Below the pieces are notes generated by a model that saw only the letters and a program-made list of their open reading frames with translations, did not search any database and was not told the DNA's origin. Position numbers and translations under genes: made by a program. Below are positions 16,290 through 57,196 of a stretch of DNA of 64,000 nucleotides, in pieces. Numbering within the stretch: position 1 is the stretch's first letter; every line of letters begins with the position of its first letter. This DNA is from Tetradesmus obliquus (Eukaryota > Chlorophyta > Chlorophyceae > Sphaeropleales > Scenedesmaceae): the NCBI GenBank assembly GCA_030272155.1, contig CP126195.1:2339001-2403000 (forward strand), in the 5' to 3' direction.

Positions 16290-19200
16290 TCAGCCCACCT
16301 GTGCATATCCTGGCAGAGTGATCTCATCCTCTTTTGACTCAGCAATGAACCTCGTAGGTAGGCCACTCCTGATTGACTCCTCAGACGTCTGCACTGTCTG
16401 GACATCGCCTGAAGCTTCGCCCAGTGGGAAGTTTGACCAGCGCAGCTCAATGCGTGGGCCAAGCGACACACGCCTCGTAAAGTTAGTGGCCGTGCCATTC
16501 CTGGTAATGCTGGTGGGCAGGATGTAGATGTTTGACAGCTTGTAGGGGCTCTTGGGTGCCAGGTATGGCTCCTTGTCGGGGCCTGCAGCGGCAGCAGTAG
16601 ATGCCTCGTCAGCGTGCTGGCACAATGCTACAACCGACAAGTCCCGCATCAGTAGCAGGCGAGCCTGTTTGAGTCTGTATGCTGTTCTGTGCATGGAATA
16701 GAGCATCGCATGTGTGGGGTGGGCTGTTGCACGCGTGCTGTGACACAGCGACCCTCTGCATGATGTGGCTGCACTTATATATGTCCTGTGCAGGCAGCCC
16801 AAAGACTGCACAGCGGCGAGCTTACGCAATTGCCGCCTGTGGCTGAGGAGGTAAACAAAGCACCAAGCATGCGTCCAGGCTATCGGGCTGTAGTATTTGC
16901 ACAAACACGACACCCAATAAGCCCCTGCAAGAAATCCCAATAGCAGCAACCCACCTGTGGACTCCAGGGATTGCTGCTGCTTCACGATGCAGCCGGTGAT
17001 ATCTGCTGACGCATCCACCTGCATATCAAGCAGTGAACGTATGTCAAAAGCAATGACCAAGTTGGCACAACATGCAGCAGCTGTCACGATACACTGCAAA
17101 TCACATGCAACATTTGCCCAAACATCACTCACCCTCAGTGGTCTGTTAGGCGCCAGGGAGCTCCCCAGGATGCACCAGTTGCCACAGTACTGCGCAGCAT
17201 CTGCGCTCTGCATCTTCTCCACACGGATCTGGCCATTCCCGCCTGCAAACTGATCTGCAAAGGCCTTGCCAGTGGTGCCCCGGTAGTCACTCATGAAGTG
17301 CAGGCAGAAGCCCTGGTTGGGAATTGCGTTGATGTTGATGGCATTCAACCACACCTACACACAGAATGAATGAAATAATGTCAACATACAGCAGCAGCTG
17401 TGATAGTGCTGGTGTGTATTGATGTTGGTGGCATTGAGCCACACCTAGCAGGAGCACTGCAGCATGGAAGGCAGGGGCGGATGCATGTTTGGTTGATTGT
17501 GTGGTGGCAGCTGCATGTGTCTTGGTGCTGCGGCCTGGGTGTTGAATCGTGCTGGTTTCTGCAACATCGCGCAGGCAAAGCATCTGATAACAAGCTCACA
17601 CAGTAACCATGGTAGACATCTGACAGCTCGTCCACCAGCTCCCCAAACACATACAACAATACACTACTTATGTGTAGCATGTATATTGATCTGTATATGT
17701 GATATTAACAGTTTCAAAAAGAGATGAAGTACTGTGCTCACCTGCAGCCTGTAGCCCGTGTAGACCTCTCCCAGCTCCTCCACAAGCTCCTTGGCAACAG
17801 CAGCAACACACAAACAATAACAGCAGCAACCATGATACTAAACAAACCCCAAAAAAACAAGGTAACAACACTAACAGTAATGCCATCATGCTCACCTGCA
17901 GCCTGTAGCCCTTGTGCACATCTGCCAGCTCATCCACCAGCTCCTTTGCCACAAGCCTGCTCATGGTTGTAGCACTCACAGTCACATCTTTGATTGCCAC
18001 ACCGATAATCCACCACCACCTGCTCCAGTACCTGCAGGATACAGCAGCAGCAATGAGGCGGGTGCTGCGTCAGAACCTGCTGCATGCTGTGTGGCCTGTG
18101 CGGGACTGCAGGCATCACCTACTGTGCCATGGATTCAATGTGGGCACTGTGTGCCGTTGTGCATGTTGTATGCGGACAGACGTGGCTAGGCATAAGCCAT
18201 GTGAAGGCTCCTGGCAGGCCACGGCAGCTTCCAGCTAGCTGCCAACTTGCAGCTTATTTGATGTGCGTCCTGCAGCCACAGCCATGCTCACCTTGCAGCT
18301 TATACGCTGCAAATGCAACGTTTAGCTGTAAATCAAGTTGTGCTGTCCCCTTGTTGCACCTGTATGATCAGGAACTGCGTATGCGGTGCGCTGATTGAAG
18401 AAGGTTGTCAGTGTCTCAAACCTACTGTGGCCTTCCCTCTCACCTGTACGGCAGGGCGATCCACGGGTTGGCGTGCTGGATGCGAGCGAAGCTGCCATCC
18501 ATCCTGCACAACAGCAGCAGCAACAGCAGCAGCAGCAGCAGCAGTGAAGACAGACACTAATTGGCTCATCCAGAGCTGCCTTTCTCACAAGTAGCCTGCC
18601 CAGCCGGAAGTACAGAAGGGGCCAGCAGTGGGGACACCATCAGGCTGCACCAAGCATGTGGCCTCAACTCTCAACTGCAGGCAATGCGCTCAACTGCAAC
18701 ACCTGCAGGTGGGCTGACTCGCGCTGTGCACAGAATCAAGCTGCACTCAACATATGGCCACAGCATTGGACTGCAGGCATTTAACACAATGTCAGCACCT
18801 GCAGGCTGGCTAAGCCTGTGCTGTGCACTGCACAAAACACTGACCAGTAGCCTCCCCAGCCGGAGGTGTAGAAAGGTGCCAGCAGGCAGAGCACCACGAA
18901 GCTACTCACAACATACGGCCACAACATTGTGTAGTTGACAACAAGCATCATGTGCACAGTCACTTACCAGTAGCCTCCCCAGCCGGAGGTGTAGAGAGGG
19001 GACAGCAGGGAGAGCACTACGAAGCTACTCACAACATGCGGCCACAACGTTTAGCTGCGGGCGTTGTGTACTTAACAACATACATCATGTGCACAGTCAC
19101 TCACCAGTAGCCTCCCCAGCCTGAGGTATAGAAAGGTGCCAGCAGAGAGGAGGCGCTGATAGGAGTGCCAGGGGGGTAAAACAAGGTGGCAGCAGCAGAG

Positions 19201-20826
19201 TCTGGCAGCAGAACAGCAGGCAGTGCGATGCAGAGAGGAAGAAAGGCTTAGCCGCAGCAGCAGGATCGGCTTTGCAGTGGGGAGACAGCACACACATTGT
19301 GTGGCATGGCAGGTGTTATATGTCTGTCATCAGCTCCGCACGCTGGCGACTAGGGCTTGGATGCATGCCTGCTGCCAGAGACATGGAGAGGTGTATGCTT
19401 TTATGAACGAGCAAACTGCTTGTTGTCAGTGTGAACGAATATGCCTTGATGATACAAGCCTGCCACTCACTGACGGCTGGAGCCATCCATACGGCTGGGC
19501 TGCTGCCTCCAGACCCCTGCCATGACTGCAGCACCCGATCAATGTAGCCATGCAGCATCATAAAGATGGGGTCCCTGCAGCGCCACGTGTAACCGGTGAC
19601 AGTGTTACAAGGCAGTTAGGCACACACCAGGTATGTAGCTGCTATCAAGGCATGCATGCGCACAGAGTAACATCGTGCGCAACATCAGTTTGGTTTGGCG
19701 CCAGCAACAGGCAAACAGCAGAGCATCATGAAGATGGGGTCCCTGCAGGCGCACCAGCGACAGACGATTTGACAGACAAGGTGCCGAAAGCTACACAAAA
19801 AAAGCCATGCCATTGACGCATCTGCTACCACCAGCTTGCAAGGTTGAAGCACGGGACAGTCGGAGTTCAATGGCACGCAGTCAAGGCCGCTGCGGCGACA
19901 TGTGACATGTTTCGGGTGAGCATTGCTGTCGATGCAGCCGCGCCCTATGGTCGCTTCGCCTTAGCTGCTGAAAAAGTGCGATGCATTTGCTGCCAGGGTG
20001 TGTAAACATGCCACACTCACTTTGCTGCTGTTGGCACAGAGCTCATGGTGCCGCCAATGTTCACGTGCATGCTCCCGTGCGTGTTTTCGAGGCGGGTTGC
20101 GCCGGAGGAGCAAGACCTGCAGACATATATACACGCAGTTGCAAAATGCACCACAAGTTGCAGCACGGAACAGGTGAGCATGATGGGATGCAGTTTTATA
20201 TTGCAAGGGTTACACATATAAAAGTCGTCTACCTTCACCAACTGCATCGCCGGTACCGCACACAATTGTTGCTGACTGCAGGTGATGTTCCAGAGCCTCT
20301 CCTTTACCATGCAGCATGCGCTTTGTGAGCAGTTGCTGTTCAACAGCAGGAGTTGACCGCCGCAGCTTGCGCTCTGCCAGGCAGAATTGGTTAAAGGGTG
20401 AAACCAACACACAATCAACACATCGAGTACAGTACAGTATGAGCAGCAACAGCTCGGCAGTAGAAGGCATGCAGCATAGCCTGCAGTCCGCTAGGCAGAC
20501 ACTGTTAACCGGCCACAGCAACACTGTCTCCAACAAATCGCCTCTCACCCTGCTCCCCATGTGCAGCCCCAGTCTGGCGATGCAATGAAGGATGTGATCT
20601 GGCTCGACCAGGAGACCGCATTCGCTGCAAAGTTTGCCTTCCAGCTGCCGGACCTTGTAGTGGCAGGGCTGCCCCAGCTGGCCAAGGGGTTTGGGATGGA
20701 TGTGGATGCATTGGTGAGAGGGTCGATGACATTGACGTTTAAGCTGTCAAGGATGGTGAAGGCGGGATCAGTGATGTAGGAGGATAAGGGGTTAATGTAG
20801 GGGGTGCGGATCTGCAGGACAGAAGT

Positions 20827-20881
<55 letters not shown>

Positions 20882-22958
20882 CGTTACAAGTCATCAGAGT
20901 CAGCCGATCACAGCATTAGTATGCCGTATTCAATTCAGCAAAACCAACAGCGTGTGACCTGCTTGTGTCAGTAATGCGCCACAGTGTCCAGTCACCTCTT
21001 CAAAAAGTGGGCTCAACAGGCACTAGCATGGTGTCATTGCCTGAACTAGGGCAGCAGCTGCTGCTGTTCCGTTGCCCACCTGATGAGCCAGCTGCTGGTA
21101 GAGTGAGCGCTCCCCTGGGTCTGCCACGCGCATGGCCACAGCATGCGCAGCATTCACCAGAGCCATCTCAAACTGTGACAGGTATGGCCTGCAGGCATAA
21201 GAGCAAGCTGGCTTCGGTTAGAGAGCCTTGGAGGTTTTGCATCTGTCCCTTAATGTAAAACATGGTCACAGCTTGCGGAGCATTCACCAGAGTCATCTCA
21301 AACTGAGACAGGTATGGCCTACAAGCGCCAGGGCACGAAAGCCTTGAATTTCAGGTAGCATTAGAGGGTTGAAGGTGCTCCCAACTTACAACATGACATG
21401 CTGCGGCAGTGAGTGTCTGCTGATGTGCTTGTGACAGTACAGCTTGCAAAGAGCACATGCCTGCTAGTATGTCTGCTGCTTTGCAGCGCACCTGTGCCAG
21501 GCAGCAAACAGAGGGTGGGAGTGCGGGCAACTGCAGGTGCAGCAGCAGCACAGAAACAGCAGCAGTGAGAGTTGTCGGTGTAGAACACAGCTGTGGTCCC
21601 ATGTTGCAGCAACAGCAGCAGCAGCACATCATGAACAGGTGTACGTGGGTGCTGCATTTGATACTGCTGCTTGTTGCTGCTGCTGCTGCTGCTGCTGCTA
21701 GTTGTAACCACGTTTAGCTGTTGTAACTAGTGTAACTAGGCAAGTTACTGGCACACGAGAGTCACTCACTATCCGGCAGTTGCCGAGCATCTGAAAGTGC
21801 CTCCAGCACAGTCCGCATGGAAATTAGCACACGCAGAGTTGCAGGCTCCCTGGTATGGTGTGCTGTTGCCATGGATCTTTGCTATTGCATCATGGTTGTA
21901 GACTGGCCCAGTTACATCAGTAGTTGACTGCATCTCTTGCATTGCAAGCAGGTACAGGGTCTGCAAGCAGCAGCAGAAGAGGGAAATGAAGCGGCAGCAG
22001 CAGCAGCAGCACTAAAAGAGAGGAAGCCACGGCAGCTGTGGCAGTGCCAGCACACGCAGCAACTGTGGCTGATGCCAGTCATGCTGCTGCTGCGAGCTAA
22101 GAAGCCAACAGGTGGCAAAAGCCTGACCAGCACAGTTAACCTCCTGTGCTGCATTGTCAGCATGCCAGGAACATATGCCAAGACCCTTGCTTTGAGTTGT
22201 TATTATACATCAAATGACAAGCCAATCACATGACTAAACGTCCAACCATGACAGCAAAGTTGACCCTCACCCTGTAGCGGTCGGTCACAGGGAGGTTGTT
22301 GATCTCAAAGATGTCCCTCCTGCGCGGGATGGAGTTATACACCCAGTTGGACACTGCAGCAGCAAGCGTGTCGGGGCAGAAGCAGCAGCATTGCCTCAGC
22401 AACTCCTGGTCTTGTTGTTAAAGCCATCTCACAAGGCGCGGTATGCAGAGGAAGCATGCATTTTCATTCAAAATCGTGTTACTTGCAAGCTTGTGTCTCA
22501 CCTGCGGCTCCATTGATTGGCCCAACAGTCGGCGTTGTCGTCATGGTTGCAATACCAACTTCATCTGTGACGCAGCAGTGGAGGACACAGGGCAAGCAGG
22601 AAGGCAGGTTGCACACAAGGCTGAGCTGTGAAAACTTGGAGTTGATGATCTGGTGTTGTTTCAACTTCTGAAAAAATCCTTGGATGGTGCCGGTCGTGTC
22701 TCATTGGGTCTGCAGGGTACTGGCGTGAACACGCAGCAGTGGCGTTTGTACTGCTCCGCAAACACTGTGAAGTTTAAACGCTGTCCACAACCAACCATGA
22801 GCTGCCTTCAGGGAACAGCATGCGGTGACAAACTTACCTCCGGCTCCTGCAAGCTGCCTGGAAGTACTGCTCGGCAAGGCAGTGCCCCAGGCCTGCTGCC
22901 AAGCAGCAGCAGCCAGCAGTGTCACCAGCGTCACGCGAACTGCGGCGAGACTTGACAT
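16290..22958 (-). CDS. Secreted tyrosinase (type-3 copper monophenol/diphenol oxidase)
   Basis: Sixteen exons join in phase: 22958-22838, 22564-22502, 22353-22271, 21960-21833, 21530-21492, 21188-21080, 20811-20549, 20371-20264, 20116-20021, 19574-19471, 19201-19105, 18503-18444, 18031-17896, 17354-17133, 17018-16955 and 16582-16290. They total 1,986 bases, 661 residues. Residues 1-27 form a signal peptide (VTLVTLLAAAAWQQAWG). CuA ligands are His119 (KIHG), His135 (CPHSHPLF) and His144 (AAWHRPYL). Cys133-Pro-His135 matches the Cys-X-His thioether pair of fungal and plant enzymes. CuB ligands are His318 and His322 (THGSMHVNIGG) and His345 (DPIFMMLHGYID). The usual first His of the HH pair at 344 is Leu. 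About 300 residues follow the copper core. They may form the shielding domain of tyrosinases, but I see no family motif. Introns contain several partial exon copies, annotated separately. Product would be o-quinones outside the cell or in a secretory compartment. Confidence 0.9.
17592..17789 (-). repeat. Two partial copies of tyrosinase exon 13's 3' edge
   Basis: Exon 13 ends in KELVDELADVHKGYRLQ followed by a GTGAGC donor. A copy at 17789-17742 reads ELVEELGEVYTGYRLQ and also ends in GTGAGC. It is 48 bases long, has an AG before it, and is in phase 0, so it could be included as an extra exon without frame change. A second, more diverged copy at about 17640-17592 reads LVDELSDVYHGYC before GTGAGC. 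Confidence 0.75.
18593..19020 (-). repeat. Three partial copies of tyrosinase exon 11's 3' edge
   Basis: Exon 11 ends in APFYTSGWGGYW at a GTGAGT donor. Copies of this edge occur at about 19010-18969 (PLYTSGWGGYW, donor GTAAGT), 18890-18850 (APFYTSGWGGYW) and 18640-18593 (a decayed version, FCTSGWAGYL). Flanking intron is partly shared, including an ACAACATGCGGCCACAAC-like stretch. Confidence 0.75.
20826..20880 (+). repeat. (CAG)n run, CTG on the tyrosinase sense strand
   Basis: A nearly pure triplet run of about 18 units lies 15 bases upstream (on the minus strand) of the acceptor of tyrosinase exon 7. In the transcript it is a CUG run next to the 3' splice site. Confidence 0.9.
21250..21315 (-). 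repeat. Partial copy of tyrosinase exon 6's 5' edge
   Basis: The real exon 6 starts at 21188 with PYLSQFEMALVNAAHAV. About 125 bases upstream, a copy with its own AG acceptor reads PYLSQFEMTLVNAPQAV and then diverges into a stop-containing frame. Inclusion would break the protein. Confidence 0.75.
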
Positions 22959-29584: not shown

Positions 29585-29622
<38 letters not shown>

Positions 29623-31869
29623 TAAGCCTCAGCAGTGTACAGGTTGCGGTGCACCAGCTTAAGGGCAGAAAATGGAAGAAGCCATGCTGCAAGACGATGC
29701 TCGCCAGTTGCGAGTTCACTCACACTCGCAGCTTTGCCCGTACGCGTCCCAACCGCCAGCGCTGTCTGCTGCAGCTCACTGGTTGCCCAACACATCACGC
29801 AACACAACAGCCAAACACACAGCCACATGTCCCCCACCTGCTGTACTTCAGCCGCGTCAGCCATTTGTCGGCCAGCCAGCCCTGCCTGCTGCAAACCGTG
29901 CTTGCACAACACCTCAAAGCCATTGAAACCATCATACTCACAAACACATGCGCCCCACCTGCTATTCTTCAGCCGCATCAGCCGCTTGTCAGCCAGCCAG
30001 CCCTGTCTGCTGTTCTTTCGCAACACCTCAAAGCCATTGAAACCATCATACTCACACACACATGCGCCCCACCTGCTGTACTTCAGCCGCGTCAGCCGCT
30101 TGTCGGCCAGCCATCCCCGCCAGGCCTGCAGCGCCCGCCCCATCACCATCAGCACCCGGTACGCCTCACCCCGCAGCAGCAGCTGCCGCTGCAGCCTTGC
30201 TTGCAGGACAACCTCCTGCCAGCCCATCAGCGCTGCTGACAGCACCTGCCGCTGCTGCCGCGCCTGCACGCCTGCCGCTGCTGCTGCCAGGCGCTGCTTG
30301 TGCTGCAGCAGCTGCTGCCAGGCCACAAAGCAGCGGCAGAGCTGCAGGAAGCTGAGCTTGGCTGCTTGCAGGTTGGCTTGGTACAGCCGCAGCTGCTGCT
30401 GAGACACCTCCTGCTGCAGAGCGGACCAGCCTGCAGCAGCAGCAACAGTGCCAGCAACCTGAGCTTGGCATGTAGAGTTACAGTTGCTGGGCGAAGCATG
30501 CTTAGCTGCTGTGTTATGCCCTTGGGCTTGCCCTTGCGCATGTGCACTGAAATCTGTGATGCTCACCCTGTATCTCATAGCACACCACCCACATGCACAC
30601 ACGAGTAATAAACTGCACAGCTGCCGACTAATTCCTGCAAGCTTGAAAACCTTGATGCGTTCTGCTTCAAGCGCACCTGCCGTCATCAGCTGCCTGTGGT
30701 GGTGCTGTACTGCCAGCCGCTGCCGCCGCCTGCTGTGTGTGAACCACAGCCACTGCTGCACCACCAGCTGAGACAGCTGCAGCCTGCATAGAACAATGGG
30801 CACAACACGAAGAGTTGAGTTGAGTTGACGTTATGTGTGACTGAAGAGCAGCTGTGTGACAGAAGAGCAGTCACAATACTGTCTCCAGCGTGTGCCTGCT
30901 GCTGCTGCTGGTCCTGCTGTACTGCAGTCGCTTTTGCCTTGTGTGATGAGACTGCAAAGCAATGATGAAACGCAACTGCACCCACCGCTGCTGCTCCTGC
31001 TCCCGTTTGGTATGGTGCAAGCTGCGCTTGGCTACCAGCGCTGACTGGGCCGTCAACTGACTCCAAGGAACGCCACAGCCCAGGTTTAAGCTAGGAGCGC
31101 TGCATGGCGTTGCAGCACAAGGCAGGTGCTGACGTGCCATGCTGCGCTGCTGCCGCGCAGCTGTTGCACTTTCAGGGTGCGCCTGCAGTTGCTGCTGCTG
31201 TTGCTGCTGGTTGAACTGTACACCTGTGCCAGACACAAGGAGTTGAGGTTCTGCCTGCTGGCAGGCACTGCTGCTGTTCCGGGCCCCAGCAGTAGAGTTC
31301 CCTGCAAGTGCCACCCCGCTGCTGCTACTGCTGGCTCTAGCTGCAGCAGCGTGGCTGCGCCCACTGACATTGGACAGAGCTCTGCTGCAGCTGTTGCTGC
31401 TGTAGCTTGTGTCATGCTGCTGCTGCTGCTGCAGCTGCGGGTTGGGCTCCTGCAGCTCTACGGACCCTCTCAGGCTGCCAGCACGGCTGGGTGGCTTGCT
31501 CTGCATGCCCCTGCCTGCTTTGGTAGTGACGCGGCCAGTTGCGATGATGCTGCCATGTAGCCTGGCTGGTGCTGCTGCTTGTGCAGGCTGTGCTGCTGGG
31601 CCCCTCTGCTGCTGGAACAGCTGCTGCGTTGAGATAATTGCCAGCTGCTGGTGTTTCTGCAAGTTGATTGGCTGTGCAGTAGGTCCGCTGCGTGCTCCAG
31701 CATCACTGGTGCTTGTGGGCTGGCCTGCTGCATCCAGCTGCTTGCTATGCAGGCGTTGCCCTGCTCGCTGCAGCCGCTGAGCCTGCAGCTTCCCAAGTGC
31801 TTTGTGTTTATGTGTATCCTGGTGCTGATGTTGATCGTCATAGCCATTTGGGTGTGGCTGGATGGGCAT
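24279..31869 (-). CDS. SFI1-like centrin-binding repeat protein
   Basis: Ten exons join in phase: 31869-30986, 30783-30677, 30430-30073, 29582-29237, 28927-28737, 28416-28099, 27856-27592, 27313-26957, 26761-26502 and about 26094-24279. This gives about 1,633 residues. Residues 1-294 are Gln/Ser/Ala-rich. Residues about 295-1030 hold at least 18 tryptophan-centred helical units of the SFI1 type. Examples are CFVAWQQLL, ALMGWQEVV, ALQAWRGWL, VLTCWRSRV, ALRAWQQAA, AVGAWHELA, CLGRWQAVA, MLAAWQLAA, VLVQWRGNA, GLAAWRQAM, ALLRWQANA, AMAAWAAAC and VVAGWRQVL, spaced by Arg/Gln-rich helix. The last exon (about 605 residues) is Gln-rich with a coiled coil near the end (QLTAALECRQQQ and onward). SFI1 repeats bind centrin along one long helix at spindle poles, basal bodies and centrioles, which fits a flagellate or centriole-bearing alga. 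The start at 31869 is the first in-frame ATG after a stop; a further 5' exon cannot be excluded. Confidence 0.85.
29583..29622 (+). repeat. (CAG)n run forming the acceptor tract of SFI1-like exon 4
   Basis: Thirteen triplets, CTG in sense orientation, run straight into the AG acceptor of exon 4 at 29582. No other pyrimidine tract is present. Confidence 0.85.
29828..30076 (-). repeat. Tandem copies of SFI1-like exon 3's 3' edge
   Basis: The real exon 3 ends near 30073 with GWLADKRLTRLKYSR at a GTGGGG donor. About 115 bases downstream is a copy reading GWLADKRLMRLKNSR before the same donor and intron start (ACVCEYDGFNGF when translated). A third copy at about 29890-29830 is shifted by one frame. 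The unit includes about 50 bases of exon and about 60 bases of intron. Confidence 0.8.
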
Positions 31870-33153: not shown

Positions 33154-33184
<31 letters not shown>

Positions 33185-33784: not shown

Positions 33785-33871
<87 letters not shown>

Positions 33872-37547: not shown

Positions 37548-37625
<78 letters not shown>

Positions 37626-38935
37626 TGAAGTCATTGTGTATGGGTGCGCTCCCTGCTGTCATGTACACCGCCGTGGCGCACCAGCTACACAGCCCTACCT
37701 GTGGCCATCAATGTTCTGCTGGTACAAGCTGCTGCTGCTGCTGCTGCTGCTTGCAGGACTGGGTCTTCTTTGACCGCGGCAGTGTGGAGTTGACTCTGGA
37801 GCTGCACGAGCAGATGAAGCCGCCGCCGCAGCAGCTGCCCGCCATGTGGGCGCTCAACCAACCTGCGCTGCTGCGCTTTGCAGAGATGGTGAGCACAGCA
37901 ACTGTCAACTCGTAACAAATATTGTCTTTCAAAAATGTAATCCACCAAATTTTTGTCATTTAGTTGAGCAGCAGCCTGCTGAGAGGGAAGGGTGCTGTTG
38001 GGTGCAGGGCAGTCCATGACAGCAGGAGAGACCGTAGCCGTCACTAACATGAAATGCTGCAGTGCGCCAATCGCAGTTTCCGAGGCTGCCTCCATTGTTC
38101 CGTCTTCTGCGTGAACGTCGCATCAACGCCTGTGATGTCTGTCTTCCATACTGCAACTTGCTGGGCCAAATGGGCTGCATGCGCGCCTGGTGTATGCAGA
38201 AGATGTCTCCCCACTGCAAGCACTTGTGCCACCTCAAATTCACGTGTATGTACGTACTGCCTGTACATTCTGCTTCATTTCTTGTCACTTGCAGGGCCAG
38301 ATGGGGCTACACGCGCGCCTCGTTGATGCAGAAGACTTCTCCCTACTGCAAGCAGGCACGTCACCTCAGAACCCACCTTTTTCTGTGCTGCCTGTACACT
38401 CTGCCCCGCTACTTTCTGTTCTCAGGGCCAGATAGGGCTGCATGCGCGCCTGGTGGATGCAGAAGACTTCTCCCCACTACAGGGCACAATCCACGTCACC
38501 ACACCACAGCACCACCGGCCTCTGGCTATCAGTGATCCAAGCGGCGAGTTCCACATGCTGCTGGCCCCAGATGTACTGTACTGCCTCAGCATTCATGCGG
38601 TACATCCGTACCGCAGCAGCCAGGCGTACTATGCGATACATGTGGCTGTGCTGCGGCTGGGGGCTCAGTGGGTGATACAAGGCAGCGGGCCCAAGGGGCT
38701 TACGGACAGGCACTTGTTCCTTGCGGAGCGCGTGTATGACGATGGTGTGGAGCCAGCCGCAGAGCCGCAGCAGCAGCAGCAGCGGGGCGGCAATGGTGAT
38801 GCAGGCAGCAGCAGCAGCAAGGCTGGCAGTGCAGCGCGGTGGTTAGGGCACTGGGGGGCTAGGCAGCAGCGCAGGCGGCAGGTGCTGCTGGGGGATGCTG
38901 CTGAGGGCCTGTGTACCACTGCCTTTGTATCCTAA
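35151..38935 (+). CDS. Secreted M14B metallocarboxypeptidase (CPD/CPE/CPM-like)
   Basis: Eight exons in phase: 35151-35241, 35329-35557, 35882-35966, 36331-36383, 36749-37121, 37291-37458, 37757-37888 and 38426-38935. They total 1,641 bases, 546 residues. An N-terminal signal peptide or anchor (VQLVVFLGAAAAVGAFLAC) is followed by a Ser-rich linker. The catalytic domain begins near WRWDAYHSHDELAGF. Zinc ligands are His141 and Glu144 (GNIHGNE) and His261 (SASLHQGALIANYP). Substrate-binding residues appear in NPDG (184-187) and LNRNFP (201-206). The catalytic Glu is Glu348 (SVELTLELHE). The last exon encodes a transthyretin-like domain (TIHVTTPQHHRPLAISDPSG, then EFHMLLAPD), diagnostic of the M14B subfamily, then a Gln/Ser/Arg-rich tail. 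It should remove C-terminal basic residues from peptides or proteins in the secretory path. TGTAA lies 39 bases after the stop. Confidence 0.92.
36681..36748 (+). repeat. (CTG)n run at the acceptor of carboxypeptidase exon 5
   Basis: About 22 pure CTG triplets end in CAG, which is the 3' splice site used at 36749. Shorter CTG runs precede exons 6 (37260-37287) and 7 (37731-37750) in the same way. Confidence 0.9.
37549..37620 (+). repeat. (TG)n microsatellite in carboxypeptidase intron 6
   Basis: About 36 uninterrupted TG dinucleotides, ending in a CGCGC step. Lies within the intron and overlaps no exon. Confidence 0.97.
38155..38350 (+). repeat. Two partial copies of carboxypeptidase exon 8's 5' edge
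   Basis: The real exon 8 starts at 38426 and encodes GQIGLHARLVDAEDFSPLQ. Copies begin near 38162 (GGGCCAAATGGGCTGCATGC) and at 38295 (after a good TTGCAG acceptor; encodes GQMGLHARLVDAEDFSLLQ). Unit spacing is about 130 bases and includes the intron end (CTGTACATTCTGC...). Only the last copy continues into the transthyretin-like domain. Confidence 0.85.
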
Positions 38936-39333: not shown

Positions 39334-42300
39334 ATGGCAGCGCAAGGGCACCTCCTGGCTGACATAGGGCTCGGCTCCGGCGCGAAATGCGTCGCCTGGT
39401 GCCCTGTGAATGGGATCGTAGCTGTAGGATCCCGTGTGCGCCACGATTTGGCCTGTGTGCACCTGCTCAACGTGCACTGCGTCAGCAGGAAGGTGACACT
39501 GTACGTGCCTCTGCAAGGTGAGAGGAGATACGAGACACGACTGGTATGAGGCCAATTGTAGCTTCATTTGATGTAGCTTGATGTCATAGCTGACGGTCCA
39601 AGCATGTGCAAGCTCCCCTGTACGCTGCTGTTGTGCCCGCTGCCACTGCTGGTTCGTCTTGCTGCTGTCTTTGCTGTCTGCAGGGCCAGAAGATGACTTA
39701 GTGGCAGTGGCCTGGTCTCCAGCTGGCTGCCGGCGCGTGCTGTTGACAGCCACACTGCTTGGCAAGCTGACAGCCTGGACGCAACAACCACCAGAGCCCA
39801 CCTCACAAACACGCATAACAGTCGAGGACTGGTGGTGCCATGACGTAGCTGATCTGGCAGCAGCAGCAGCACAGCCTGCAGATCAAGCAGCAGCAGGACA
39901 GGCGGGTAGCAGCAGTGCTGATGGTAGCAACAGCAGCCCTGCTCAGCTAGTGGCAGTACAGTGGCTGCAGCCTGCAGCTGCTTGGGCATGGAACAGCAGC
40001 ACAGTGCAGCAAGCAGACTATTCGACAGGGTCAATGCATGACATGTTTGCACAGCCCAGCCTTCCAGGAGCTGCAGGAAAGGCAGTTTCCTGCAAGCCTG
40101 ATCCTGCTGGACCAGGCGAAGCTGCAGCAGGCGCACAGGGCGCAGCAGACAGTGCAGCAGCAACAGCAGCAGCAGCAGGCGATCAGCCGGGTCACAGCAG
40201 CAGCAGTGAAGAGTTCCACTGGGTGCGCACTGGCACGATGGCATTCACAGCAGTGATGTCAAGCGGTGCTGTTGTGCTAGCATGGGCTCAGTGGTCAGCA
40301 TATGGCCAGTTGAGCTGGGTCTGCACAATCGGCATCACCCTACCTGTCCCTGCAGCGCTTGCAGGACAGGCGCAGGTGGCTGCTGCAGATGCAGCAGTGT
40401 GTGCAGAAGGCGTAGCTGTCGCGTATGCGCTGCAGCAGCAACCGAGCACGGTGTTTGTTGCGCACCTGCAAGGGAACCCGCTGCATGCGCAGTGTGCTCT
40501 GCTAGAGCCTGGCAGTCAACCGCTGCAGCTGCCAGTGGTGCAGGCTGGCTCTTACACCATTGCAGAGCCACAGTGCCACATTAGTGCAGTGAGCTGGGAC
40601 CAGAGCAGCAACAGCAGCCGACTGGCTTGCATTGCTTCGCGCAACAGCAGCAGTGGTGCAGCCGCAGGGGCGGCTGCTGCAGGCAGCACCGGCGGCGCAA
40701 CGCTGACGTTGCTCAGCTCGCAGCAAGGGCAGTTGCAGCAGCAGGCGCAGGTGCAGTGCGCAGCAGCAGTATCGCAGCAGCAGCTGGTGTGGCTGCTGGA
40801 CGGATTGCTGCTGTGGTCTGGTGGCGACAGCATGCAGCTGTTCACACTGGACCCCTTGCAGGAAGCAGCAGTCAAGTTTGCGGCACCGGCTGGCAGGTTC
40901 AGAGCAGCAGCAGCAGCAGCAGGTGCTGACCGCAGCAGTGGAGGCAGGCAGCTGTGTGCACTGGCAGCCTCCCCTCACGGCGTGGCTGTTGCAGCAGTAA
41001 TGCCATGCTCCTGTGCAGCCCGCGGCACAAGCAGCAGCCGGCTGCTGCTGTACAATGTGCCTCCTGCAAGAACATCCAGCAGCAGCAGCAGCAGCAGTGA
41101 GGCCGCCGGGCTTGGATCGCCCAACCAGCAGCCTGCTGCTGCTCGGCTGCTGTGGGCGCTGATGCAGCAGAAGCACACCTGGGACGTTGTGCAGCACGCG
41201 CTGTGTGCTGCGCGCCTTCCTGCAAGCTCAACAGCAGCAACAACATCAGCCGCCAACGGCAACCCCAGCAGTACGACTGCAACCGCAGCCGCAGCAGCGG
41301 CAATACAGCCGGAGGCGGTGGGGCAGGTGCTGGCGCTGGTTGACTCTAAGCTGGCAGTGCAGCAGCCGACCCTGAAGTCCACCTTTTCAGCGCGCTGGGA
41401 TGTACTGAAGCTGGCGCTGCTGGGTGGCACGCCGGGTGACGTGGCGCGCGTGGTGGGTGTTGACCTGCGGCTGCGCATCATCAGCCACATGATGAAGCCC
41501 GTGTTTGACGTCATGCGCGAGGTGAGGCGGCAGTGGGATTGTGGTGGTTACAACAGCTGTGAAGGCAGAAATTTACAGCAGTTTTAGTGGTAAAGTACCT
41601 GAGGCAGTGAGCAGGGATGGAGCCCCAAAACACGACAGCTGCAAAGGTGTATTGCTAGCGTCAGTGGTGTAGTGTTTGCTGATGATATGGGCCGGCTGTT
41701 ACGGCTGGTTGGCGTGGACCTGCGGCTGCACATCATCAGCCACATGATGAAGCCCGTGTTTGACGTCATGCGCGAGGTGAGGCGGCATATGTGTAGCACC
41801 TGTGATCGTGTCTCAATAGTATGGTTTGCGTGGCCCGGGCAGCCCATCTCATGTGGCCGTGGGTGTGTCTGATGAGGTGGCCAAGTGATTCTGCTGCTCT
41901 CACTCAGTAGGGTGTAGTGATACCTGGATCACATCGAGCACCACTACACCACGAGGTTTACGCTGCTGGCTTGCACCTCAATCCAGTCTGATTGAGAAAC
42001 AAACCAGCAGCGTACTCGTGGTGTACCTGGTTGCGATGGGCAGCTGCGATGGCAGGCTCTTGTCAGATCTATGGTGAAGGACATCATCAGCCGCATGATG
42101 AAGGCCGTGTTTGACGTGATGCACGAGGTGAGGGCTAGATGTGCAGCACCTATGATCATGTTTTATTTTTGAATTGTTTGTGTCCTGCACAGCCCACGTT
42201 GTATGGCGGTTGGCGTGGCTTGCAAGGTGGCCAGGAAATGAGTCTGCAGCTGGAGTGTTCATGTACTTGTGTAGTGGTACCTGATTGTGCTGGGCGGCAC

Positions 42301-44186
42301 GCCGGGTGACGTGGTGGGCGTGGACCTGCGGATGCACATCATCAGCCACATGATGAAGCCCGTGTTTGACGTCATGCGCGAGGTGAGAGCCGTATGTGCA
42401 GCACCTGTGATCGTGTTACAAAAGTACAGTTTGCGTGGCCTGGGCAGTGTCCATTTCATGTGGCGGTGGGCGTGCCTGATGAGGTGGCCAAGTGATTCTG
42501 TTCACTCGTTAGGGTGTAGTGACACCTGGATCACATCGAGCACCACTACACCAGGAGGTTTACGCTGCTGGCTTGCACCTCAATCCAGTCTGATTGAGAA
42601 ACAAACCAGCAGCGCACTCGTGGTGTACCTGGTTGTGTACCTTGGACCTTGTAACAGGATCGCCACATGCAAGGGCGGGCTGTTGTTCAGATTTATGGAT
42701 GCACAGCATCAGTCGCATGATGAAGTTCATGTTTGACGTAATGCGCGAGGTGAAGATGGCAGTGTAGTTGGCCTGCTGTCAGCAGTTGTGAAGGTAGCGA
42801 ATCTATAGCAGCTTTTTGTAGTGGCACAGTCCTTGAAGGAGTGAGCATGGCTGGCGCCCGGAAACACAACAGCTGCAAACCTGTACTGCTCGAATCGATC
42901 CGACTCGATTGATGAGGATAGCTCAGACCTATCCCCTGCCCATGTCTCACATTTAACACTGCGGGCGCATGCTCCATGCTTATGCTCTGTGTGTGTGCAA
43001 TCGACTGTGCTCTCCGCTGCTTACCTTGCAGGACGCGTCCATGCGCCAGCGCGAGCAGCGGCCGCGCCTGACGGGGCTCAGCCCGCTGCACACCTACCTG
43101 GCTGACCTCATGTCCTTCCACATCGCATGCCTCTTATCAAACACTGCGGCCGCATGGTCCATGCTCCATGCTCTCTGTGCATATTGGAAATGCACTGCGC
43201 TCTGCTCTCCACTGCTTGCAGGACGCGTCCATGCGCCAGCGCGAGCAGCGGCCGCGCCTGACGGGGCTCAGCCCGCTGCACACCTACCTGGCTGACCTCA
43301 TGTCCTTCCACATCGCATGCCTCAAGACCTGGGTGGCGCGGCGCGCAGGCAGCAGCGCCGGCCTGCCGCAGCACGTGCCCTGCATCCGGCACTTCCTGGA
43401 CTGGCGGCCCTGCAACCTGCTGCTGCTGCTGTACATGATCACGTGCACTGCGACAGTGAGTGCCATCAAAGCGTGTGTCGCACAAATTAGCTAGAGCTAA
43501 TGAAGCAGGCGCTTCCCTCACTATATAGCAAGTGCAAAGGCGTAATTCAGATCTGCTTGTATTAGTTCCGCGCTTTTCCACCGTCCGCAAGCTTGCACAT
43601 GCGCCTGCCAGATAACCACCCAAAGATGACTGCCAGTACCACTTATAGTCAACTGCACGCAATCTGGCATGCTCCCTTGCCTGGCATGCAGCTGGATTTG
43701 CCTGCCCTGCCCAGCGCTGCTTCGCACTGCTTACGCCTTTTGACCGTGCCTCGCTCCGCATCTGTATTGCTGCCTGCTGCGCAACCCTCGACTGCTCACA
43801 GTCGCACTCCCCCACCGCCAAGGCTGATGACGTGCTGTACCCCACGCTCAAGCAGGCCTTCAAAGCGGCACCAGCCTGCAAGGACGCGGCATGGGAGCAG
43901 ACCGCACGAGGTGCGATGCATTACAACAGCCTTGATGCAGCCTACAGAGGAAGAGCAAACAGTGTTAGGTCGACTTAAATTTTGGCAGCGCGACCGCTGA
44001 TCAGGTCATGCAGTGATGACTTGTGGGTTTTCAAATGTTTGTTTGCCGCCTAGCCGACATCGTCCTTATGTCGCTGCTGCTGCTGCTGCTGCTCCTACTG
44101 CTGCTGCTGCTGCTGCGCAGGCCTGTTTCCTGGTGAGCTGCAGCTGCAATACAGCGAGACCATCCCGGAGTGCCTGTCAGGGCTCA

Positions 44187-44270
<84 letters not shown>

Positions 44271-44340
44271 GCAGGCCTGTTTCCGGGTGAGCTGCAGCTG
44301 CACTACAGCGAGACCATCCTGGAGTGCCTGTCAGAGCTCA

Positions 44341-44378
<38 letters not shown>

Positions 44379-44593
44379 CTTTGCCACAGGCCTGTTTCCT
44401 GGCGAGCTGCAGCTGCAATACAGCGAGACCATCCTGGAGTGCCTGTCAGAGCTCACGCTGCTGCTGCTGCTGCTGCTGCCACTTTGCCACAGGCCTGTTT
44501 CCTGGCGAGCTGCAGCTGCATTACAGCGAGACCATCCCGGAGTGCCTCTCAGGGCTCACGCTGCTCCTGCTGCTGCTGCTGCTGCTGCTGCCG

Positions 44594-44629
<36 letters not shown>

Positions 44630-45547: not shown

Positions 45548-45869
45548 GCTTGAAGATGGGCGTGTGGCCGTTGTGAGCAGGAGTTGCAGTGTGATATTTG
45601 CAGCCTGGTATGTGGCTTGGGGTTTGTCCCGGTTTGGGGTTTGTCGCCAAGGTTGTGTCAGGTGGGGTTGGGGAGTAATAGCCAGGCCATCCTGTCTGCT
45701 GCTCGTTGCAGTTGGCTTTGCGTGCGTGAGCGTTGCTACGTGCTGTAATCGTGCCTGGCTGCATTGATCAAGACCATAAGGGCATAGCAACAGAGACTTT
45801 TTGCTCACCTACTAGGAATAGCAGCAGCAGCTCCGCACCAGCAGCAGCAGCAACAGCCACAGAAGAAAC
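45548..45869. other. Intergenic region with MED16 3' UTR and VPS2 promoter
   Basis: A TGTAA signal lies at 45744-45748, leaving about 120 bases before the VPS2 ATG. The region just before the ATG is CAG-rich (45819-45855). Nothing else is evident. Confidence 0.5.
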
Positions 45870-48298
45870 ATGGAGTGGCTGTTTGGAAAGAAAAAGACTC
45901 CCGCAGAGATGCTGCGGGAGAACAAGCGCATGCTGGACAAAGCCATTCGCGAACTGGACCGAGAACGCATAGGCCTGCAAAACCAGGAAAAGAAGACTGT
46001 AGCAGAGATCAAGAAGATGGCCAAAGAGGGGCAGATGGTGGGTGTATGTCGCCATGCACTTTCGCAACGGTCGAGGCACCTCTGCATCAGCAGTAGCACA
46101 GTCACTGCTGATGCTGACCTGATGGGTTTGCTGCTTTTGCTGCTCGCAGGACGCTGTGAAGGTCATGGCCAAGTCGTTGATACGCAACAGGCATGCAGTG
46201 ACCAAGCTGCATGGGCTCAAGTCGCAGCTGCAAGCAGTGTCACTGCGGATACAGGCAAGTCCCAGTGCATGCAACATAGCAGCTGCTGTGCTGTCGCTGG
46301 CGCAAGGCTCCGCTGCAGCATGCATACTCTCAGGCAGCTCCAAGTGCTCATCCGCTGTGTGGCCGCAAAGCTTGTTGCTGTGTTGATTTCCTGCAGACGC
46401 TGAAGAGCACACAAGCCATGGCAGATGCAATGCGGGGTGCAACAAAGGTACGGTTGTTGCGTCTGCCTGAGAGAACCAGGTACCCTGCAGCCTAAGCAGT
46501 ACCTTCAGGCACATATCATGTCACCATTCTGACACCTGTAAACAAACCAATCACACACTGTGCTGCGCAGCCACATAACGTGTACAGTCCTGTGTGGTGT
46601 GTTGCCTGGTTTGTGCAGTTGCCTGCAGCTGCTTCCAGCACAGACCCTCCGCACTGCTCTTGCTGTCTAGTGGAAGTATCACCTGGTTGGCTGGCCAATG
46701 CTTCAGCTCTCAGTGGTGTAATGCCTGTTACACACCCCGCAACACCATTTGCATTGCAGCTTCTGCCAGCCCTATCACTGCTGTGTGACACATCACGCTG
46801 CTGTCACCTGCTGCTCACACTCGCTGCTGCTGCTGCTGCTGCTGCTGCCGCCGCCAGGCGATGCGCGTGATGAACAAGCGCATGAACCTGCCCAACATGC
46901 AGAAGATCCTCATGGAGTTTGAGAAGCAGAACGAGCGCATGGAGATGACCAGCGACATGATGGGTGACGCGATTGATGACGCCATGGAGGTGCGGGCAGC
47001 ACCAGGCTAGTTAGCACCAGGGTTGTAAGGTTTGAGGTTTCCAGACCTGGAAGGTGCGCAGCTGGCAGCACACATGCATGGCAGCAGGCAGGACTCAGAG
47101 GCAGCAGGCTTGATAGGAGATGCCAATGGTGATGTGGTGGAGGTGGGTGTGCCAGCTGGCACACTGCAGGCCGAGCGGCAAGCAGGCAGCACACAGGGCA
47201 GGGTGCAAGGTTTGGAGATGACCAGCGATATGATGGGAAGACGCGGTTGGTGACGCTATGGAGGTGCGGCGCGGCAGGCAGCACCAGGGTTGAAACGTTG
47301 TGTTATAACAATCATGTTATGGCCACCATGCAGCGAAGGCAAGACAGCAGTATGAGTTGCAGCAGGCAGATTGCAGGGCAGCAGGCAGGATGCAGTATGC
47401 TGCATCGTGTTCTGCTTGAGTGACACACAGTGGGTGGTTCTGCTTGAATGACACACAGTGGTGGGTCAACCTGGAGTACTCTGTCACTGCTGCTGCTACT
47501 GCTGCAGGGTGAGGGCGAGGAGGAGGAGACTGACGACCTCATAGGCCAGGTGCTAGATGAGATCGGCATCTCAACCACCACGCAGGTGCGCGGCAGCAGC
47601 AGGGCGGGCAGGGGATTGGGTATGCCAGTGGTGGTGCGCAGTGTGTATGCGCCTGCAGCTGCGCAGGGCTGCCAACTTGCTGCTGAGTGCATCTTGCTGA
47701 ATCGCTGCATGTCACCTGTGCTGTTCAACTACCTAAATGGATGATCCTGGCTCTGCGTGTTCTCGTGTTTGCCTATTTGTTGCAGCTGGTGTCTGCGCCA
47801 GACATGCCGGTGGCAGCAGCAGCAGTGCCGGCGCAGGCAGCGCCAGCCATGGCTGAGGCAGTGGGGGCGGGGCCCTCAGCAGGGCCGGGCATCGATGAAG
47901 ACCTGCAGGTGAGCCTGCGGCCAGCAGCAGCAGCAGCAGCAGCTCGCAGCAGCGGCCGCGAGCAGCAGCAGCAGCGCTCAGCAATGGCAGTGGGCATGTT
48001 GGGTTGGGTTTGGTCAAGGGTCTGGGGTTGCTTGCAGCAATGCTAGCGACAGGTTCAGGCGCTGAGGACGGTAGATGCAGGCAGCAGTGCTGCAGCCTGC
48101 CATGTTTGCATGCGGTTCCATGTTGGCGCAGGTACTGCAGTGACGGCGTGCCTATCGCCAGCTATGGCACACAGGCAAACACACCCTGTCACTTGCATTG
48201 CGCTTACTTTGATTTACTGCATAATCATCTGTGATGGCTTAACCATGTTTTGTGTTTGTGCTGTGCAGGCGCGGCTGGATAACCTGCGGAAAACATGA
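45870..48298 (+). CDS. VPS2: ESCRT-III subunit VPS2 (CHMP2-type)
   Basis: Seven exons in phase: 45870-46037, 46150-46254, 46397-46447, 46858-46989, 47508-47585, 47786-47908 and 48269-48298. They total 687 bases, 228 residues, close to CHMP2A (222). The N-terminus MEWLFGKKKTPAEMLRENKR is the classic basic VPS2 start. The Snf7 core continues with AIRELDRERIGLQNQEKK, MAKSLIRNRHAVTKL, MADAMRGATK and MNLPNMQKILMEFEKQNERM. An acidic helix (EGEEEETDDLIGQVLDEIGI) follows. The C-terminus DEDLQARLDNLRKT fits the MIT-interacting motif that recruits Vps4. It polymerises on membranes for multivesicular body sorting and abscission. Intron 2 appears to use a GC donor (CAG then GCAAGT). A copy of exon 4's 3' edge lies at 47214-47265. 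Confidence 0.95.
47214..47265 (+). repeat. Partial copy of VPS2 exon 4's 3' edge
   Basis: The end of exon 4 (GAGATGACCAGCGACATGAT then on to GCCATGGAG and donor GTGCGG at 46990) recurs about 273 bases downstream with small changes and the same donor. Two changes shift its frame. Intron text after both donors is also alike (GCAGCACCAGG). Confidence 0.8.
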
Positions 48299-52985: not shown

Positions 52986-53017
<32 letters not shown>

Positions 53018-54133: not shown

Positions 54134-55803
54134 GTGTTCTTGTTGTGCTCACAGCAGTTTTGGTGCAGGTGCAGTAGCTGCTAATGCACAGTGCTTGCAC
54201 GTGCTCCGGCCAACACAGGCGGGCGTTTTTTGTGTATGAGCATCCCTGCACCTCAGGGCATGGCATGATGCATTCATTTGACAAGCTAGGCTGGCGGGAG
54301 CAGAGTTTGGTGTCTGAAGTCCCCTTTTGGTGGGGTCTGGTAGCTGTAGTGCGAGGGCGTATGCACGTAGCAGATCGTACTTGTGCAGAGATGAGGTCGG
54401 TTGGGGTATCGCGCAGAGATGGGGTTGGTTAGGGTGCGTGTTGAACTGAACTGTTTCTGCAGGTGTTGTTTTCATGCTTGCAGGCAGCTACACAGGCTGG
54501 GGCCGGCACCGTGAGGGTTGGGGATAAAAGGTTTAGTGGCATTTCAGCTTAACATGCGTTACACCACACCTATGATACAACCAAGCCTGCCTTAGGGTTG
54601 GCTGCGGATATGTGTGTAACGCGGCAAACTATCTGTTATATCAGTCTGTTTTGACTCTGTGTGTGCAGCGCTGTGCCGGGGCCCATGTTGGGATCATGAC
54701 GTGCAGGCATTGTGTGCGTGCGCTGCACTGATAAGCCTAGCTAGGTGCATGTATGCTCCCACACAGCAGAGTCAGCCGTGCGGAGCGTTCCTGAGACTCA
54801 CATGCAGCGCTGTTATGTGCGGTGTGCTGCTGCGCTCAGCGCAGTTCTCTATTTGTGAGACGAGTTATTTGGCCAACTTCATAGGATGTCTGCAGGGTTG
54901 TTTGACAGCACATGCCGTGCCCTGAGGTGTTGGTGTGTGATGACGACTGCCTTGCCCTTCAGCCAGGAAAGGCATCACAGGCATTACATGAGCGCAAGCA
55001 CACATGCAACAGTGTGTTGTACAGCTGCAGCATTTGGTAACAGTAGCATGTTGACAGAGCGGTTGCATATAGTAGCGGGGCCACAGTGTCCTTTTGTATA
55101 TGTATACATATAAGCTACGTAGCTCAAGCTTGACATCAGCCGCTAGCGGAGCTGCGCAGCAGTTTGGTGCAGTTGTCATCTTTGAAGTGTGTTGTGGCAG
55201 CCGAAACATTGCAGGCTGTTGACTTGAGTGGCGTGATTTGATGCGATGGCTGGCCTGTTGATGCCGGCATACGTTGTTTGCAGGCAGGAGAAACAGGGTG
55301 CTGCCAGTTGAGAAGTGTCCTAATCACGTGTTGCTGCAAGGGTTGTGCAGCAGACTACCTTTATGCAGCAGGTTGGGGCGTGGTTGGGAGCTTGCAACAA
55401 GGTCAAATTTCAGTTCTCCTTTTTTCTATCTATGTGAGATGTGGTTTGCAACAGATGCCAAACTGTTGATCCATGCCAGTTTGCATGCACCTCACTGGGT
55501 CAACTGTGCAGTATTGACTCCTGGGTGCTGGCTTTGGTGGGTAACGCTGCACCTACGCACGAAGTTGGGCATTCTCATCCGGAGAAAGGCATTACAAGTA
55601 CTGTTTCGTCTCCAGGACTGAGACGTGAAGAAATGTCATTGTGGTGGGCGACTGGTCATTCTAGAACCTGCACCGACACACGGCCCCTGGCATCGACACG
55701 CTGGGCTCATTGAACGTAACTTTGTTCTTTCACACCAACCGAATCTTGCTGTTTTCGCCTGCCGACAGCAGCAGCAACAGCAGCAGCAAGCACGCAAAGC
55801 AGA
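54134..55803. other. Intergenic region
   Basis: Holds the F-box 3' UTR (TGTAA at 54615-54619) and the promoter of the chaperonin gene. The middle (54700-55700) contains only short frames without motifs. A small CAG-rich patch at 55768-55790 lies just before the chaperonin ATG and is probably 5' UTR. Confidence 0.45.
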
Positions 55804-57054
55804 ATGGCATTCAGCCTGGCACAGCAGAGGGCTTCCGCCCGCCTCAGCAGCCATCAGCAGCGTCCAGGTACGTGCCTAGGTTCCGATACTGCATGCAAGC
55901 TGCTCAGACGCAACAGCAGTCGGTGTTCTTACTACAGCTTGTGTCCACTTGTCCGCAGCTCGCCAGCTGCACATACGGGCAGCCTTGACAGCAGAGAAAG
56001 CAGGCCTGGACATCAATAAGGTACGTTGATTGAATAGCCCCTGTAGCTTGGCCAATGAAGCCAGCTTGATGCACATATGGCCATGTCTGCTGCCGGCGCT
56101 GCTGCTGCTGCTGTTGCACTTACCAATCTGCACTTGTCCTCTGCAGATGGAGCCAATGCACGATAGGGTACTCATCAAGCCCTTTGAGGATGAGCCGGTA
56201 AGCAGGCGACAGGGATCAGCCTATGCATCGCTCTCAAGCAGGATGAGGATGCACAGCGTGTCCAGCAGCGTCCTGCAAGCAGCTACGCTTCTGTGGCTTT
56301 CTCAGGGCTGCATGTGTGCGGAGGCATGCCTTTTTTTGGTCAGGAGAGTAGGTTCAGCTTCACATGCAAGCACACCACCAGCCCAACTGGTGGTTGATTT
56401 AAACTTCTGCACATCTTTTGGGAGAGGGTGGTTGTAGGTGTAGCTCTGCGTCCACTCTGCTTGTGTGCTTGCTGCTTGGTGTTTTGTGCCTGCAGAAAAC
56501 CGCTGCTGGCATCCTGCTGCCAAAGGGCCCACCAAAGTCAAACTCAGATGCACACTTTGGCGAGGTCAGTGACAGCCGGCTCAGCAGCAGCAGCTGCAGC
56601 TGTGGCAGGGAGGCGTTGGCAGTGGCGGTGGCAGTGGCAGCTGGTGCTACCAGCATCCGAGCAAGCAGTTTGAACTGCAGCTGCGGCAACCCTCTCTCTA
56701 CATGCCCTATCGCAGTATGGATCATCCCAGGTCAATAGCATGACCTACCGTGCCAGGCCAACGCATTGCGCAGCGTTTGGGGCATTTGGCAGCGCACAGG
56801 CTCTTTCCATCTTATACCAGGTGTCTGTTGCCTTGTGTGCCGTCTAATTGCTGACATCTGATGCTGCTGCCGCCACCGCCGCCTGTTCTCATCTTGTTGC
56901 TGTGCAGGTGCTGGCCATTGGTGCTGACGTGACGTTGCCGCTGGCTGTGGGTGACAAGGTGGTGTTCCAGAAGTACGCCATGGCCGAGGTGGAGGTGCCT
57001 GATGGCGACATCCTGTTTGTGGCCGAGAAGAGCATCATGGGCAAGCTGGAGTGA
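55804..57054 (+). CDS. Organellar GroES-type co-chaperonin (Cpn10 family)
   Basis: Five exons in phase: 55804-55867, 55959-56020, 56147-56197, 56496-56564 and 56908-57054. They total 393 bases, 130 residues. Residues 1-42 are an Arg/Ser/Ala/Gln-rich targeting sequence (MAFSLAQQRASARLSSHQQR). A single Cpn10 domain follows: MHDRVLIKPFEDEP, then the mobile loop and GILLPKGPP, HFGEVLAIGADVTL, VGDKVVFQKYAMAEVEVPDG and DILFVAEKSIMGKLE. It caps Cpn60 and assists protein folding in an organelle. The targeting sequence does not decide between chloroplast and mitochondrion. The single domain excludes the double-domain Cpn20. An extra copy of the final coding segment lies in the 3' UTR. Confidence 0.9.
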
Positions 57055-57120
57055 AGCAGCAACAGCAGCAGCAGCACCTGCCGGCAACAGCGGCAGCAAA
57101 GTAGCAGCGGAGGTGGCTGA

Positions 57121-57196
57121 GGTGAGGTGCCTGACGGTGATATTCTGATTTTGGCTGAGAAGAGCGTCATGGGCAAGCTGGAGTGAAGCAGCGGCA
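57121..57196 (+). repeat. Copy of the chaperonin gene's last coding segment, in its 3' region
   Basis: Starts 67 bases after the real stop. It encodes EVPDGDILILAEKSVMGKLE and a TGA, followed by the same CAG-rich stretch (AGCAGCGGCAGCAGCAGC) as after the real stop. The copy begins within the exon and has no acceptor, so it looks like a tandem duplication and not an alternative exon. Confidence 0.88.

Follow-up and report, generated by a model that had tools for sequence, protein, structure and literature searches.

Direct copies of exon edges beside their own exons in Tetradesmus obliquus, apparently a variant of local tandem duplication

Tandem exon duplication, as in mutually exclusive exons, is well known (PMC9013439) and places direct exon copies, splice sites included, next to the original within the same gene. 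Patch-mediated and replication-slippage duplications, described in plant work, leave short direct repeats, in some cases separated by unrelated filler. In the AGGT model, an intron is gained by tandem genomic duplication, and the downstream exon start comes to lie at the 5' end of the intron. Here we describe a related arrangement in Tetradesmus obliquus, found in a stretch of 64,000 nucleotides (GCA_030272155.1, contig CP126195.1, positions 2,339,001 to 2,403,000; the window). In this stretch, the ends of exons, together with the adjoining splice site or stop codon, recur as partial direct copies close to the real exon.

Compared with tandem exon duplication, the copies are mostly exon ends, few of those classified have a fair in-phase partner splice site (3 of 35) and several sites can occur in one gene. 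Compared with patch-mediated or slippage duplications, the similarity between copies mostly stops at the edge of the coding sequence, and their spacing clusters at 95–160 bp. Local duplication around splice-like sites is shared with the AGGT model, whereas each copy here retains its splice site on the original side, and the extra copies lie within introns that already exist; an intron formed of one duplicated unit with exchanged ends was not seen among the pairs inspected. The SFI1-like, carboxypeptidase and CTG-linked MED16-like arrays, with periods of 103–154 bp, resemble intronic minisatellites, whereas most sites hold two copies anchored at an exon edge and separated by unrelated sequence. 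Exon-restricted conversion between paralogues also leaves coding sequences highly alike next to diverged introns, a pattern seen in LHC genes of this genome, but in the present case one partner is a fragment about 100–370 bp from the real exon of the same gene. Among the literature matches listed, exon-edge copies of this kind appeared in no title or abstract opening, a weak negative that leaves out subscription journals; on this weak evidence, the finding is a variant of local tandem duplication apparently not described before.

The window and an independent sample of five 40-kb blocks of the same genome (contigs C1–C5), together 264 kb, were compared with themselves after masking of simple repeats, and direct repeats less than 3 kb apart were collected at a Basic Local Alignment Search Tool (BLAST) E-value of 1e-3 or better per pair. 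Ten clusters were detected in the window and 46 in the 200 kb of the other five blocks (8, 2, 5, 10 and 21 in C1 to C5). The GC (guanine plus cytosine) content was 57.7% in the window and 57.0–61.8% in the blocks. Over the 264 kb, 201 pairs less than 3 kb apart were direct and eight inverted; no inverted pair within this distance was found in the window at the same threshold. Direct orientation at the same locus, and the presence of such repeats in all five other places, are in favor of local duplication, although some direct-repeat clusters contained no gene edge. The original prediction, made from the window alone, had named six genes with exon-end copies (tyrosinase, SFI1-like, carboxypeptidase, MED16-like, VPS2 and Cpn10), always direct, and had suspected a genome-wide process. 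All six were located with their adjoining splice site or stop, and the exon-edge copies are confirmed as real and as extending to all five other sampled places. Pfam confirmed tyrosinase, M14 carboxypeptidase, Snf7 (VPS2) and Cpn10; the MED16-like and SFI1-like proteins had no Pfam match, and both names are the prediction's only.

Block B5 (L021–L024, G000:C5:1000001–1040000) was the densest, with 21 clusters per 40 kb versus 2–10 per 40 kb in the other four. In a CBF/Mak21-like gene of this block, one intron contains a duplicated end of the upstream exon and, after it, copies of the start of the downstream exon.

A typical site consists of about 25–120 bp from the end of an exon, splice site included, then about 40–200 bp of unrelated sequence and the first stretch once more. 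Donor sites, acceptor sites and two stop-codon ends were copied, and the rest of the exon adjoined only one copy per site; both 5' and 3' edges are thus involved and a single copy is joined to the full exon reading frame, as had been claimed. Start-to-start spacing was 95–160 bp in 41 of 74 pairs, below 95 bp in two and sometimes 200–600 bp; one pair (B5 24913/25158) is entered twice in the 74-row sets and in the 58-row spacer set used below. At some loci (SFI1-like; tyrosinase at 18.8–19.1 kb) the copies form a full tandem array that takes in intron sequence as well, and Tandem Repeats Finder (TRF) gave periods of 114 for the SFI1-like array, 131 for carboxypeptidase, and 103 and 154 for the CTG-linked MED16-like array. 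A trace of likeness between spacer and expected flank remained in 19 of 58 spacers (p<0.025 for either side, with about three expected by chance) and was missing from 39.

To predicted coding edges the copies were closer than random placement would give. A predicted splice edge lay in a copy or within 15 bp of it in 55 of 74 nonoverlapping pairs, compared with 35.2±3.9 for random placement, a count inflated by our own ab initio gene models, which were trained on the sample and were blind to repeats but called some extra copies exons. (An earlier model degenerated into tiny exons and was replaced.) At the median, homology extended 7 nt into the intron, versus 29 nt at random (p=7e-5); when each 1.5-kb cluster contributed a single pair (n=30), p was 0.003. 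A stricter count, which required the edge to lie 5 bp or more within the copy, was only suggestive (29/76 versus 21.5±3.7 at random and 23.0±3.6 within genes), so the excess expected over random positions held for the first count and weakened in the second. We infer that the excess sits where homology stops at the junction. Strong splice motifs within copies, tried as an annotation-free test, were uninformative (65/76 pairs versus 67.4±2.8).

For a closer view of the junction, 42 pairs with a recognizable splice site or stop in both copies were curated, most from 95 adjacent pairs and some from the window arrays, so that copies of one array enter several rows and the rows are not independent. 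GT or AG was kept in both copies in 35 of the 40 splice-edge pairs, partly through this selection, and nine of the 42 pairs had an indel in the coding part. The junction profile used 35 pairs, leaving out two stop-codon pairs and five with a shifted or lost dinucleotide. Ungapped exon identity (hand averages) was about 0.94 over the first 25 positions and about 0.92 over the first 30. Intron positions 1–6 gave 1.0, 1.0, 0.94, 0.71, 0.89 and 0.66, the first two being identical by construction, and positions 7–40 fell to about 0.4. Flanks at intron positions 11–60 were at the unrelated level (baseline 0.52±0.06) in 15 of the 20 pairs with at least 93% exon identity, and above baseline in 13 of all 42 pairs.

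Three LHC family genes on contig C14 served as a yardstick. Their coding identities were 98.9%, 93.4% and 93.5% over 633 nt, with introns at 0.57–0.79 matches per shorter length; in the closest pair (98.9%), the two introns gave 0.65 and 0.79, and BLAST still aligned across the second at 88% over 1,156 bp including exons. Coding likeness beside diverged introns is therefore not confined to exon-edge copies, although a single family is a narrow and maybe special yardstick. One LHC paralogue (L041, 1228–1475, G000:C14) has about 248 bp of inserted sequence, probably an intron, at a place where the coding sequence of its near-identical neighbors L040 and L042 runs on unbroken.

Differences in the 42 curated pairs fell at codon positions 1, 2 and 3 in the numbers 57/40/137, with the frame set automatically (wrong for B5_5431 and doubtful for B5_7171, both kept in the totals). 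By hand sums, the 33 indel-free pairs had 30/19/91 and the nine indel-bearing pairs, the only control, 27/21/46. Intact copies thus look partly constrained and indel copies neutral; the difference is about 2.4 standard errors by hand, with array rows that are not independent.

The MED16-like gene carries five donor copies at 41451–42749 (E1–E5), an acceptor pair at 43032/43222 and five CTG-linked acceptor copies from 44121, as follows.

41451..41521, plus strand: real exon 3' end (E1); the junction agrees with the transcript-like protein P0001
41706..41776, plus strand: exon-end copy with donor (E2); versus E1, exon 51/52 and flank 47/85 (unrelated level); versus E4, flank 86/98
42081..42127, plus strand: copy E3; 44/52 to E1
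42312..42382, plus strand: copy E4; 50/52 to E1
42697..42749, plus strand: copy E5; 42/51 to E1, flank 67/93; BLAST 73% over 170 bp
43032..43133, plus strand: copy of an exon 5' edge, the real exon starting at 43222; exon 102/102, upstream intron 68/90 with 5 gap columns
44121..44559, plus strand: four CTG-linked copies of an exon 5' edge (44121, 44275, 44390, 44493), the real exon being at 44637; TRF periods 103 and 154

The kinship within the donor array was discordant: E1 and E2 are near-identical in the exon part with unrelated flanks, whereas E1 and E5 differ more in the exon part (42/51) and have related flanks. Among the extra copies, exon and flank identities were 51/52 and 86/98 for E2–E4, 45/52 and 68/97 for E2–E3, and 46/52 and 66/98 for E3–E4. 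The tyrosinase and SFI1-like arrays lean toward the same discordance, over only 36–43 sites. This discordance indicates that exon parts were exchanged, or copied, separately from introns; a separate copying of exon edges would yield the same discordant genealogies as gene conversion. If constraint acted on the real exon only, simple decay would predict an intron divergence at most about twice that of the exon, so the 102/102 exon beside a 68/90 intron, together with the kinship of the array, suggests that simple decay is not enough.

The archive protein P0001 (517 residues) is intron-free across five exons and is therefore transcript-like. It uses each duplicated MED16-like edge once and runs on only from the last of the CTG-linked acceptor copies; a comparison with the window by eye showed one short in-frame replacement and differences at three residues. 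A histidine common to copies E2 and E4 is absent from P0001 and from the relatives P0004–P0007. The gene (window 39334–47908) lies directly before VPS2, and a public protein of Scenedesmus sp. PABB004 (P0003) fuses MED16-like and VPS2, which indicates a conserved gene order and an annotation that merges neighbors. A public T. obliquus protein (P0002) fuses carboxypeptidase with part of the MED16-like gene.

We tentatively favor, without giving it even odds, the reading that these copies were left behind by short direct duplications, local and frequent, whose coding part has been kept alike by exchange with the real exon. Short direct duplications, mostly spaced at 95–160 bp, would cross the edge of a coding segment, and full tandem arrays with exon and intron repeated are a plausible starting state. 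The copies would be tolerated because the one contiguous with the remaining exon is still chosen, by splicing or by termination at the first stop, and the others are spliced out or lie beyond the stop; P0001 supports this for one gene, and it may hold for the others. The intron part would then diverge, mostly past recognition, while the exon part and splice consensus would stay alike through constraint on the real gene and short exchange between neighboring copies. Such exchange, by gene conversion or template switching, may re-copy the exon part repeatedly and would leave exon-edge islands within otherwise unrelated intron sequence.

Short-range duplication, as proposed originally, is thus supported but leaves unexplained the pairs with at least 93% exon identity and unrelated-level flanks. 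Several points weigh against the favored reading. Tandem likeness was absent from 39 of 58 spacers, including those of pairs with 97–100% exon identity; for all 39, copying confined to the exon edge at the outset is an equally good fit. Third-position differences made up 91 of 140 in indel-free copies versus 46 of 94 in those with indels, and exchange alone predicts no synonymous excess. Tracts of 30–100 bp are short for gene conversion, the exchange is read from patterns rather than from any event directly observed, and the flank relations in the MED16-like array are weak, unrelated 100-mers already aligning at 62±5%. The LHC yardstick is one family that may be special, with one intron still aligned by BLAST. 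What keeps the exon part alike may be local exchange, copying limited to the exon, or an origin of the copies as allelic fragments.

The last of these is a serious rival, though on balance we hold it doubtful. Diploid haplotypes may have diverged until their introns no longer match, so that exchange between them loses homology at exon edges, and repair or template switching would then insert the exon edge of the other haplotype beside the home exon. Coding-limited likeness and the third-position excess of indel-free copies are as expected of allelic exons, and it is mainly this excess that keeps the rival high; one B5 pair had eight differences in 120 nt, all at third positions. The expected flank was likewise unmatched in the 39 spacers mentioned, and two spacers searched genome-wide, one with copy and flank, had no other match in a search that skips common words. 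The T. obliquus DOE0152z assembly of 208 Mb, versus about 109 Mb for UTEX 393 (PMC5552973), counts in the same direction, as do a reportedly diploid T. obliquus strain with extensive heterozygosity (Biondi et al., as cited in PMC12636532) and a second T. obliquus assembly, also of 17 sequences, in PMC12571836, although its being a haplotype of the same strain is a guess. Arrays of three to five copies, copies with matching introns and the histidine shared by E2 and E4 do not fit this origin well. A diploid source would also make an assembly artefact from two collapsed, diverged haplotypes conceivable, and artefacts would gather at exon edges, where haplotype alignment breaks; we consider it highly unlikely, as the divergence of the copies is very uneven and includes indels, three to five copies occur, arrays and fragments coexist and the contigs are megabases long.

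Ordinary tandem duplication followed by neutral decay, with exon edges standing out through constraint on one exon copy, accounts for the full tandem arrays and for indel-bearing copies that look neutral (46/94 at third positions), yet it is hard to reconcile with the data and we regard it as improbable. By reasoning, an approximately twofold slowing is expected, whereas 15 of 20 pairs with well-kept exons have unrelated-level flanks, one acceptor copy is identical to its exon beside a diverged intron, and extra copies are closer to each other in exon than in flank. The retained GT or AG, partly a matter of selection, and the 80 synonymous versus 50 amino-acid-changing codons of the 33 indel-free pairs would suit copies under selection as alternative exons or decoy splice sites. 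We judge this very improbable: of the 35 copies classified from the 42 pairs, only three had an in-phase, stop-free partner site that lay no more than about 40 bp from the inner end and scored no lower than the lower quartile for predicted sites, P0001 has single copies of the MED16-like edges, and two stop-codon-end copies lie beyond the stop. In addition, the CBF/Mak21 homologues P0010, P0014 and P0024 directly join the exons flanking the copy-filled B5 intron. A source of alternative exons, which had been suggested, is not supported, also in view of the nine indel-bearing pairs.

Other origins were set aside. Complete cassette exons were rejected, as the copies mostly have no fair partner splice site, and mobile-element insertion with long target duplications was rejected, as the tested spacers were unrepeated elsewhere; of 65 spacers compared with the 264 kb, four had one match each elsewhere, of 16–53 bp. 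Copying from spliced messenger RNA or complementary DNA was rejected by reasoning, the inspected copies keeping the intron splice consensus on the side of their own exon, with no run-on into the next exon. Snap-back repair with inverted copies is unlikely given the orientation counts.

The CAG/CTG tracts suspected of promoting the duplications are enriched: tracts of at least five units occurred in 15 of 74 spacers versus 5.3±2.2 (maximum 13 in 400 draws) in equal-length random intronic stretches, a count that treats several spacers of one array singly and leaves position within the intron uncorrected. The other 59 spacers had no such tract, so the tracts are at most a promoting factor; the data support promotion at some loci and no general cause.

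A bolder version, which seems to us rather unlikely, is that exons continually stamp copies of their own edges into adjoining introns by exchange that extends only as far as exon boundaries allow, perhaps since homologues pair only at exons in a diploid with fast-changing introns. If true, fossil exon edges would make up part of the introns and would serve to date them. If general, the copies would be a genome-wide source of intron growth and decoy splice sites, and likeness stopping at splice junctions would be a record of intragenic recombination, with exons as homology islands. Annotators are warned that an ab initio model took several extra copies as exons and that P0002 fuses two genes.

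The remaining window loci are given below. The tyrosinase gene has four separately duplicated edges (17742/17896, 18844/18968/19105, 19554/19722 and 21131/21261).

17896..17953, minus strand: tyrosinase, real exon 3' end, donor side
17742..17799, minus strand: copy of this exon end with donor; exon part 49/58 identical, homology ending 7 nt into the intron
about 17594–17641, minus strand: third, worn copy of the same exon end, by eye
19105..19149, minus strand: tyrosinase, real exon 3' end with donor
18968..19012, minus strand: tandem copy 1 of the 19105 exon end, intron repeated too; exon 31/36 and intron 59/66 with 28 gap columns, versus the real end
18844..18888, minus strand: tandem copy 2 of the 19105 exon end; exon 34/36 and intron 44/69, versus the real end
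19554..19580, minus strand: tyrosinase, real exon 5' edge with acceptor; copy at 19722–19748, 26/27 identical (96.3%)
21131..21188, minus strand: tyrosinase, real exon 5' edge; copy at 21261–21318, 53/58 identical, homology ending 2 nt into the intron
29838..30117, minus strand: SFI1-like, three tandem units with exon ends at 30073–30117 (real), 29959–30003 and 29838–29882 (copies); TRF period 114
38164..38478, plus strand: carboxypeptidase, exon 5' edge copies at 38164–38220 and 38295–38347, real exon from 38426; TRF period 131
46940..46989, plus strand: VPS2, real exon 3' end; copy at 47213–47263 with indel, 45/50, one indel
56981..57053, plus strand: Cpn10, coding end with stop codon; copy at 57114–57185 (indel) downstream of the stop, 63/72, one indel

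The SFI1-like copies had 38/43 and 40/43 identical exon positions to the real end, with 61/70 and 44/65 in the intron. In Cpn10, the end carrying the stop codon is copied just past the stop (56981–57192), which indicates that the process is not tied to splicing. For carboxypeptidase, an allele comparison found no close homologue. A perfect (TG)36 tract lies at 37549–37620, inside a carboxypeptidase intron of the ab initio model.

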